64,000 nt of DNA from Haloarcula sp. DT43. Its GTDB lineage: Archaea > Halobacteriota > Halobacteria > Halobacteriales > Haloarculaceae. The notes beneath the pieces were generated by a model. The model was not told the origin of the DNA, searched no databases, and worked only from the letters and a program-made list of their open reading frames with translations. Positions 33,059 through 35,259 of this stretch are shown piece by piece. Every line of letters starts with the position of its first letter. Position 1 is the first letter of the stretch. The translations under genes were made by a program, and so were the position numbers. The stretch is taken from NCBI RefSeq assembly GCF_037078405.1, contig NZ_JAYMGZ010000001.1:310001-374000 (forward strand), read 5' to 3'.

Positions 33059-33370
33059 TCACTCCCTGGAGTGCAGCGAGTACGCGATAAAGAGGACGCC
33101 GACGAACTGGAACGCGCGGGTGACGAGCGTGAGCGGTTGCTGGAACCGGCCGGCGAGCAGGCCCTGCTGCAGGAGGAGCGACCCGGCGAACGCGACGACG
33201 AAGGCCACCGCCGTGAGGCAGAACAGCCCGACCGAGAGGTACTGCATCGCCCGACTGTCGTGGCGACGATACCCCCGGTAGGCCTGGTAGCCGACGTACC
33301 CACCTAGTACTGTCGAGCCGAACGCCAGGACGGTGATGAGCCAGTTCATGAGCGTCTCGATGGCGACCAT
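33059..33370 (-). CDS. small membrane protein (DUF7521-like)
   Basis: A 103-residue membrane protein with three hydrophobic helices (about residues 9-26, 45-72, 83-98): TVLAFGSTVLGGYVGYQAYRGYRRHDSRAMQYLSVGLFCL and FQFVGVLFIAYSL. It follows the winged-helix regulator with its start (33370) one base after that gene's stop, so both are in one unit. This HTH plus small-membrane-protein pairing recurs in haloarchaea and is annotated DUF7521. Biochemical role unknown; a membrane sensor feeding the regulator is possible. Confidence 0.75.
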   Translation of the reverse strand: MVAIETLMNWLITVLAFGSTVLGGYVGYQAYRGYRRHDSRAMQYLSVGLFCLTAVAFVVAFAGSLLLQQGLLAGRFQQPLTLVTRAFQFVGVLFIAYSLHSRE

Positions 33371-33371
33371 C

Positions 33372-33743
33372 TCAGAGGTTCTCCCACATTTTCGTGAATC
33401 TGTCCGCGGTGTCCTGTTCGTCCTGTCCCGGGAACGCCGGCGGCTCCGTCCGCTCGACGTCGGTCTCGAAGTCGCCGTCGGCGAGTGCAAGCGAGAACTC
33501 CGAGAGCGTGGCGGCGAACACGCTGTAGTCGTTGCCGCCCGTCTCTATCCGTGTCTGTTCCTCGATGAGGCCGTGCTCCCGGAGCCACTCGACCCGTCTG
33601 TAGACGGTCGGTTGTGACATCTCACACTGGTCGGCGAGCTGTTTCGCGGACATGGGTTTGACACTCGTTGCTGCGAGGATGTCCCGGGCGTACTCGTCAC
33701 TGAGCAGGTCGAGGATGTCGCCCACGGCCGGGTCCTCACTCAC
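33372..33743 (-). CDS. winged-helix transcriptional regulator (ArsR/TrmB-like)
   Basis: A 123-residue protein with an N-terminal winged helix: AVGDILDLLSDEYARDILAATSVKPMSAKQLADQCEMSQPTVYRRVEWLREHGLIEEQTRIE. MSQPTVYRR is the recognition helix, and the wing GGNDYSVF follows. The C-terminal part is acidic and helical (FSLALADGDFETDVERTE). The GTG at 33743 is chosen over TTG at 33755 because the conserved start is SEDPAVGDIL and the upstream TATA lies 28 bases away. Target and ligand unknown; it probably regulates the co-transcribed DUF7521 gene. Confidence 0.85.
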   Translation of the reverse strand: MSEDPAVGDILDLLSDEYARDILAATSVKPMSAKQLADQCEMSQPTVYRRVEWLREHGLIEEQTRIETGGNDYSVFAATLSEFSLALADGDFETDVERTEPPAFPGQDEQDTADRFTKMWENL

Positions 33744-33768
33744 GTATCGGCCCAACGGTCCGTCCCTG

Positions 33769-33776
33769 AATAAAAG
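33769..33776 (-). promoter_or_regulatory. TATA element of the winged-helix regulator gene
   Basis: On the minus strand CTTTTATTC centres 29 bases before the GTG at 33743, a typical leaderless promoter. This shows that the regulator gene has its own promoter, so the structured stretch before it is not needed as a leader. Confidence 0.6.
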
Positions 33777-33780
33777 GTCC

Positions 33781-34010
33781 CGTCAGTTTCCGAGTCAGAA
33801 GCAAGCCACGGGACAGTGTCAGCGGAGACCGGCGCTGTCAGGGGGTTCCCCAGGCAGGGCAGTCGGGGCAGGGGACCGCTTCGCGGGCGGCTGGCCCACA
33901 GCACCCTCAGGGTGGCCGCCCCGGGAAGCCCCGGGGCGTGTGGTGGACAGACAGCGGCCGCGGCCGGAGGGCGTCGGTGGCACGGTGGTTCAGGGCCGCT
34001 GCATTCCAAT
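33781..34010 (-). ncRNA. candidate structured non-coding RNA, class unknown
   Basis: The 334-base gap between two minus-strand genes (33756-34089) is not coding in any frame: the longest translated stretch is Pro/Arg/Ala-rich and not acidic. It packs five or six stems into about 200 bases: a 9-bp GC stem with tetraloop (33917-33925 with 33930-33938), an 8-bp long-range stem (33952-33959 with 33994-34001), CACCC/GGGTG (33902-33906, 33910-33914), CCGC/GCGG (33876-33886) and CAGCG/CGCTG (33820-33837). A TATA element precedes it on the minus strand and a T-rich tract follows. SRP and RNase P RNA motifs were looked for and not found. Strand and boundaries are inferred. Confidence 0.45.
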
Positions 34011-34024
34011 CGAGGGGCGGTTCC

Positions 34025-34034
34025 ATAATATAAC
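34025..34034 (-). promoter_or_regulatory. TATA-like element upstream of the structured region
   Basis: On the minus strand GTTATATTAT is the only strongly AT-rich stretch in this gap. Transcription would begin near 34003-34007, directly before the first stem of the structured region. Confidence 0.5.
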
Positions 34035-34089
34035 GCACCACCGAACTTCTGACCCAGAAAACGGCGGCCTGATGTGCTCGCGCGGGCGG

Positions 34090-35259
34090 TCACTCGCCGA
34101 CGGGACAGCCGATTGACTGGCCCACTGCGACCAGTCGGTCCGTCGAGACGCCCTCGCCACGGACCGTGTACCGGTAGCGCTCACAGCTCCAGGAGACCGA
34201 CGGCGTCAGGTCGCGGCTGACCTGTGCCGGCCGCCCGTCGATTGTCACGCCGGCGTTTCCCTCCGCCCCGGCGGCCGGCCGGTCGTACTTGGCGACGGTG
34301 AGCAGACTCGTCCGGTTCGCGTAGCGGAGGCCCACCCCGCGAATCTGGCCCTCCGTCCGGGTCGCGGCCTGCAGTTCGTAGCTTGGCGGGATGTCGGGGT
34401 CTGGGACCCGCATCTCCGCCGCGGCTTCGAGGGCGCTGACCGACTCGTAGGTCAGGGTCTCGGGCGTCTCCGGGACGGTGACAGTCGTCCCGGCCGGGAA
34501 CTCGGGAGTGAACGCGTCCGCCGACACGCCGGTGTCGTAGCTGACGTTCGTGTACGTCGTCGTCACGACCGTCCGCTCGCCGCCCGCCGTCCAGGCGGTG
34601 CGCTTTTTGACCGGGAAGAACCGCTCCGTGTCGACCCAGAGCGTCTGCTCGTAGGCCGCGTCGGCTTCCGGCGCGAGGTGGACGACGTACGCGTCGCGCC
34701 CGTCGACGGACGCCGTGCCGCGGTAGCTGACGGTCATCGGCCCGGCGGGAGCGGCCGGCCGCGCCCCGGCGCGGGGTACGACCGGTAACGGCTCGACCGA
34801 CCGGGTTTCGGTCGCCGTGGCCATGTCGAGCGTGGCGAACAGGCGCTGGAGCCGCTCGCCCCGGTCGGCCTCGCTCCCGCTGAGCGAGAGACGCGTGGCG
34901 TTCGCGCGGTCCCGGTCGTACAGCCACAGCGTCGGCCCGTTCGACACCCGCAGGTCGTACCGCCGCGTGGTGGCGTCGACGAGTTCCAGCCGCTTCTTCG
35001 GGGTCCCCGGCTGGAGCGTGGCGTCGTAGGTCGTCCGGCTCGCGACCGTCCCGTTCCGGGTAATCGTCGTCGTCTGGGTCGCGCTGACGCCGTCTATCGC
35101 CGCGTAGCGTTGCGTCACGTCCGCGTCGACCTGTAGCTGGTCGGCGGTCCCGGTGCTCGTGAACACGAGCGACCACGTCGCAACGGCCAGCACGCCGACG
35201 ACGACCACCGTCGCAACGGTGAGGACGAGTCGTTCCGATGTGAGGTGTCGAGTGACCAT
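34090..35259 (-). CDS. membrane-anchored LolA-like/DUF4367-like protein
   Basis: A 389-residue protein with one N-terminal membrane segment (about residues 10-34, VLTVATVVVVGVLAVATWSLVF) and an outside domain. The middle, with YDATLQPGTPKKRLEL, GPTLWLYDRDRANATRLSL and YEQTLWVDTERFFPVKKRTAW, resembles the LolA/LppX beta-sheet fold; the C-terminus resembles DUF4367. There is no outer membrane, so lipid or lipoprotein handling at the surface is only a guess. It is the last gene of a minus-strand run after the ABC exporter, 85 bases downstream, and may share a transcript. Confidence 0.72.
   Translation of the reverse strand: MVTRHLTSERLVLTVATVVVVGVLAVATWSLVFTSTGTADQLQVDADVTQRYAAIDGVSATQTTTITRNGTVASRTTYDATLQPGTPKKRLELVDATTRRYDLRVSNGPTLWLYDRDRANATRLSLSGSEADRGERLQRLFATLDMATATETRSVEPLPVVPRAGARPAAPAGPMTVSYRGTASVDGRDAYVVHLAPEADAAYEQTLWVDTERFFPVKKRTAWTAGGERTVVTTTYTNVSYDTGVSADAFTPEFPAGTTVTVPETPETLTYESVSALEAAAEMRVPDPDIPPSYELQAATRTEGQIRGVGLRYANRTSLLTVAKYDRPAAGAEGNAGVTIDGRPAQVSRDLTPSVSWSCERYRYTVRGEGVSTDRLVAVGQSIGCPVGE

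Follow-up and report, generated by a model that had tools for sequence, protein, structure and literature searches.

Results

The locus and its neighbours

Within the window, the whole 64,000-nucleotide stretch of Haloarcula sp. DT43 DNA analysed here, a gap (33756-34089) lies between two minus-strand genes, as originally noted. The upstream neighbour (34090-35259, minus strand) encodes a LolA/RseB-like exported protein, recognized through ortholog profiles and synteny. Its orthologs match LolA_like in 10 of 10 cases and MucB_RseB in 9 of 10, with a best E-value of 1e-7; the Pfam scores of the window's protein itself fall below the cut-offs, and an AlphaFold model of the LolA-like protein has a mean pLDDT of 42, too low for a fold search. 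In Haloarcula argentinensis a partial second copy of the LolA-like gene stands directly upstream of the intact copy (L072:552-1343). On the other side of the gap, a nearly leaderless gene (33372-33743, minus strand) encodes a winged-helix regulator, HTH_20/ArsR-like by Pfam and 123 amino acids long when read from a conserved GTG. At all loci examined it is followed directly on its 3′ side by a gene for a DUF7521 small membrane protein (33059-33370, minus strand; Pfam and synteny). The regulator also matches SdpR autorepressors weakly (E-value 5e-7), its 29.5 bits lying below the NCBIfam membership cut-off of 100.

That the gap is non-coding, as had been proposed, is borne out by 15 Haloarcula loci, where the homologous gaps measure 304-354 nt, differ by insertions and deletions that are not multiples of three, and have no frame open throughout. 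Readings as a plus-strand or small-protein gene were rejected because the reading frames are not conserved. A leaderless four-codon frame, A/G/CTG CAG CGG CCC followed by TGA or TAA, occurs at 33991-34005 and in the Haloarcula homologs, where the stop is kept while TGA changes to TAA; it was discarded as a coding sequence since its start codon or stop is lost outside Haloarcula.

Predicted promoter and anatomy of the RNA

All features of the gap are read on the minus strand. Operator 1, an exact match to the palindrome TTCTGGGTCAGAA (34047-34059), lies 13 nt upstream of a TATA box (TTATATTAT, 34033-34025) that is conserved in Haloarcula and across 392 genomes searched by pattern, and that corresponds to the TATA-like element originally noted on this strand. 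The predicted start, at about 34005, is 25-26 nt downstream of this box, and the predicted non-coding RNA is provisionally placed at 33800-34005 on the grounds of conservation, non-coding character and a covarying 5′ stem. The 5′ strand of that stem, P1 (GCAGCGGCC, 33994-34002), begins 3 nt from the predicted start, and its 3′ strand is GGCCGCTGT (33951-33959). Downstream of P1 follow a GC hairpin (33917-33938), partly conserved by pairing counts, and a conserved box (GGTCTCCGCTGACAC, 33816-33830; GGTCWCCGCTGACGC in other lineages) with the consensus GGTCtCCGCTGACrC. Operator 2 (TTCTGACTCGGAA, 33788-33800), a pattern match, precedes the regulator promoter, whose TATA box (CTTTTATTC, 33776-33768) is invariant in 14 Haloarcula and corresponds to the separate promoter already read for this gene at 33769. 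The T-rich stretch that had been thought to follow the RNA is in fact this same TATA box rather than a terminator. The window sequence holds no terminator-like T-run between the RNA and the next promoter, and read-through into the regulator gene is therefore possible.

Homologous gaps repeat this arrangement of TTCTGGGTCAGAA or a close variant, 12-13 nt, a TATA box, about 25 nt and then P1. However much its sequence differs, the 5′ strand of P1 always starts 3 nt away from the predicted start. With the operator and TATA box at a fixed distance from P1, the RNA has a predicted promoter of its own. Within Haloarcula the operators and TATA boxes rank with the best-conserved blocks of the gap; nucleotides 1-70 of the predicted RNA reach about the promoters' level of conservation, the 100 nt after them vary, and conservation returns at the box.

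Distribution and RNA class

When 60 related genomes were searched at the DNA level, the gap was present at 77-81% identity in 13 other Haloarcula genomes and in part in a 14th, the carriers including Haloarcula argentinensis, amylolytica, mannanilytica, japonica, sebkhae, salina and vallismortis. With the regulator as bait for loci of matching gene order, the same arrangement was recovered in five further genomes of the genus; the order LolA/RseB-like gene, gap, regulator, DUF7521 is also present in Haladaptatus, two Halogranum species, Halogeometricum, Haloprofundus and locus L080. The promoter pattern, run over the 392 genomes, and later a covariance model added members from other families. 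One pattern match, L117, has a cdc6-like gene on one side and a CRISPR-like array on the other; it was set aside as a chance resemblance.

A second clade, comprising Halogranum, Haladaptatus and relatives, contributes 17 distinct sequences of 104-113 nt in which the box comes directly after the P1 3′ strand. Its covariance model found three new loci (L154-L156, E-values 0.001-0.006) that carry a similar operator, TATA box and regulator gene, none of which had been used in the search. The Haloarcula copies give only chance-level matches to this model, so that their homology rests on position, promoter, P1 and box. By these comparisons the predicted RNA gene is conserved across several haloarchaeal families. 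Two genomes of the window's genus (L059 in G001 and L060 in G026) carry the Halogranum/Haladaptatus version of the entire locus, a sign that it may have moved between families in one piece.

Comparison with Rfam 15 gave no family above threshold, with no match in the window or for the one second-clade member compared; at a permissive threshold the gap region drew chance matches only, none near the gathering threshold. The sole matches of this genome to archaeal SRP RNA (RF01857; G000:C6:24269-24581) and archaeal RNase P RNA (RF00373; G000:C2:65509-65959) are on other contigs, in keeping with the claim that the gap is neither. The combination of no Rfam match, a conserved TATA box and compensatory changes in P1 across lineages supports the original proposal of a minus-strand RNA gene of a class absent from Rfam. 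The RNA is undescribed in the literature searched, where subscription papers were thinly covered.

Compensatory changes in stem P1

The two main stems of the original prediction, a 9-bp stem CGCCCCGGG-GCTT-CCCGGGGCG (33938-33917) and an 8-bp long-range stem pairing CAGCGGCC (34001-33994) with GGCCGCTG (33959-33952), are present exactly as drawn, and a G-U pair (34002/33951) lengthens the latter to give P1. The strands of P1 read GCAGCGG/CCGCTGT in Haloarcula, where the stem hardly varies, and GCAGCGG/CCGCTGC in L080. In the second clade they are of the type GCRATGGG/CCCATYGC, with GCGATGGG/CCCATCGC and GCAATGGG/CCCATTGC among the forms; Halogranum rubrum has ACGATGGG/CCCATCGT and genome G014 has GCGACGGA/TCCGTCGC. 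Within the second clade, with partner strands fixed by sequence alignment, 99.3% of cells are paired and there are 5 compensatory cells against 1.1 in shuffles (0/500) and 0-2 when the strands are slid. Over all lineages (20 distinct strand pairs) 6 of the 9 pairs show compensatory change; the 30 compensatory cells compare with 11.1 in shuffles (0/500) and with no more than 6 after sliding. Outside the 17-member clade, complementarity guided the choice of the 3′ strand, a procedure that favours pairing. Shuffle tests on single sequences gave 0.04 for the window, 0.00-0.08 in the second clade, 0.03-0.06 for L080 and L123 and 0.013 for L057 and L156; L015, L058, L061 and L105 did no better than chance.

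The GC hairpin behaves differently from the firmly covarying long-range stem: in Haloarcula 74.8% of its cells are paired, with three compensatory pairs and two broken in most sequences, so that its covariation is weak, it is kept only in part, and it is not the conserved core. The description of the gap as highly structured holds for evolution, in the compensatory changes of P1, and fails for free energy, since the minus strand folds no better than its dinucleotide shuffles (z -0.71, 42 of 200 shuffles as good) and the plus strand does no better (z -1.09). The compensatory changes in P1 mark the gap as a predicted structured non-coding RNA.

A rare palindrome at both promoters

The operator pattern TTCTGNNTCNGAA has only 7 matches in the 3.75 Mb genome, and two are inside this gap, one ahead of the RNA and the other ahead of the regulator TATA box at almost equal distance. 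Every homologous gap retains the palindrome in exact or closely similar form, and it also stands before the regulator gene in Haloarcula, G014, G008, G025 and Halorientalis. The orthologous regulators of Halorientalis (62-65% identity) have the site before their own promoter and no RNA. In paralogous regulators whose recognition helix reads STVSRR, not PTVYRR, the palindrome is altered to TGCTGGGTCAGCA, and this matched change of helix and site links the palindrome to the regulator. The shared rare site, the Halorientalis sites and the paralog palindrome together make the regulator itself the likely ligand. Because the rare palindrome occurs at both promoters, RNA and regulator probably form one autoregulated unit. 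The second clade has no obvious palindrome at the regulator's own promoter, and autoregulation there would use the distal site only.

Related arrangements occur elsewhere. At L112, L121, L124, L133, L135, L137 and L139 (genomes G030, G363, G077, G337, G266, G289 and G352), TGCTGGGTCAGCAAATCGG and a TATA box precede paralogous regulator-DUF7521 pairs, with palindrome and recognition helix both unlike those of the window's pair. Sites of the form TGCTG...CAGCA in seven genomes were rejected as members, as they precede a paralogous regulator without an RNA. At L129 and L138 a regulator-DUF7521 pair shares its upstream region with a divergent gene whose start resembles that of a membrane protein; only one palindrome of this type is present there, and it may serve two promoters. 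At L105:1501-1800 (G014:C1:2435362) a LolA-like gene without an adjacent regulator gene is preceded by a second operator, a TATA box and a GGTCCGCTGACGC box.

Discussion

Starting from the observed locus, its conservation and non-coding nature, the covarying P1 and the shared operator, we see about an even chance for the full explanation, in which a separate small structured regulatory RNA shares its operator with the regulator in an envelope-linked circuit. The RNA gene is probably transcribed, and its product would be a minus-strand transcript of ~110-200 nt beginning near 34005, with a 5′ end closed by P1. With the same palindromic operator at both promoters the regulator most likely controls both, that is, its own operon (regulator and DUF7521) and the RNA, for which we infer binding as well as direction. 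The membrane partner, perhaps with the LolA/RseB-like protein, would relay an envelope signal so that RNA and regulator change together; this sensing role is suggested by the weak similarities to SdpR and to LolA/RseB proteins. The box and the CUGAC repeats might then serve as a contact site for a target RNA or protein, with action in trans.

Comparison with possible RNA targets revealed none. Complements of the box number 18 genome-wide against 15 for the control, which is no enrichment, and duplexes of the RNA with the starts of the regulator or DUF7521 mRNAs are no better than those of shuffles. In Haloarcula the box pairs with the regulator start codon over an ungapped 11 of 13 positions, counting G-U, which is among the top few of 22184 placements; the match has no support from co-variation and is lost where both partners changed. 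Antisense action on the regulator mRNA found no support: only some lineages show the complementarity, it does not exceed that of shuffles, and L084 and L057 have lost it.

A different reading, possible though somewhat unlikely, is that the gap supplies the regulator-DUF7521 mRNA with a long 5′ leader under regulation, such that the distal promoter would yield a leadered transcript and the proximal one a nearly leaderless transcript, with the structure tuning translation in cis. The RNA lies on the same strand, always upstream of a gene of the module and with no intervening T-run, and in G014 the second operator and box (L105) precede a LolA-like gene that is also equipped with a proximal TATA box, all of which would fit a leader. 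Against this, the regulator keeps a conserved promoter of its own that is nearly leaderless, the distance from RNA to gene differs by tens of bases, P1 and the box stand at the end away from the gene, and the Halorientalis regulators, at 62-65% identity, manage without the RNA. Of the two readings, our preference is for a separate small regulatory RNA.

The repeated motif invites a further alternative, in which the CUGAC repeats sequester an RNA-binding protein as CsrB-type RNAs do with CsrA. CTGAC is present in 2-3 copies in most of these RNAs, against 0.2-0.8 expected, and the second clade keeps the motifs as CCTCTGACAGCAC and CCGCTGACGC; yet the copies are few, several members have a single one, L080 and L123 have none, and the protein partner is hypothetical, so that a decoy function appears improbable. 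Finally, it is very improbable that the gap is regulatory DNA with two promoters only, its conservation reflecting DNA-binding sites and its stem a by-product of GC-richness, since the strong conservation of operators and TATA boxes and the near-zero free-energy z in Haloarcula are set against RNA positions 1-70 about as conserved as the promoters and compensatory changes in P1 between lineages that DNA sites leave unexplained.

Beyond the original prediction, the present analysis adds an RNA family, a covarying stem and an operator common to RNA and regulator. Evolutionary evidence for structure and a likely controlling protein are available together for very few regulatory RNAs of archaea. 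As this RNA occurs in culturable Haloarcula and Halogranum and adjoins a probable regulator with two operator copies, it offers a compact, testable archaeal RNA circuit. A bolder proposal, which we regard as rather unlikely, is that the locus is an archaeal envelope-sensing unit, in which autoregulated winged-helix, membrane and RseB-like proteins would control a dedicated RNA as an independently evolved counterpart of the sigma-E small RNAs.

In bacteria the envelope-stress small RNAs MicA and RybB depend on sigma-E, which works with RseA and RseB. As in that system, a non-coding RNA is apparently under the regulator of a module containing an exported RseB/LolA-like protein and a membrane protein; here, however, the promoter is archaeal and the regulator a winged-helix protein with no sigma factor, the target is hypothetical and the RseB similarity is weak. 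The Bacillus SdpR/SdpI pair couples an autorepressor to a membrane protein, and the present locus likewise sets a small ArsR-type autoregulated helix-turn-helix protein beside a small membrane protein, although the regulator is under the family cut-off, DUF7521 is not SdpI, and an RNA gene belongs to the unit. CsrB and RsmZ, decoy RNAs of the CsrA type with repeated GGA motifs, share the feature of short motifs repeated in a structured RNA, but the motif here is CUGAC, not GGA, in 2-3 copies only, and a CsrA-like partner is hypothetical. Comparable in setting are the haloarchaeal intergenic small RNAs of Haloferax volcanii, H. mediterranei and a halite community, which have their own archaeal promoters and mostly unknown targets, those of the halite set being intergenic and 50-200 nt long (PMC3956466, PMC5852579, PMC7002113). 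Those RNAs were found by expression, whereas covariation and the shared operator led to the present RNA, which belongs with a single regulator locus.
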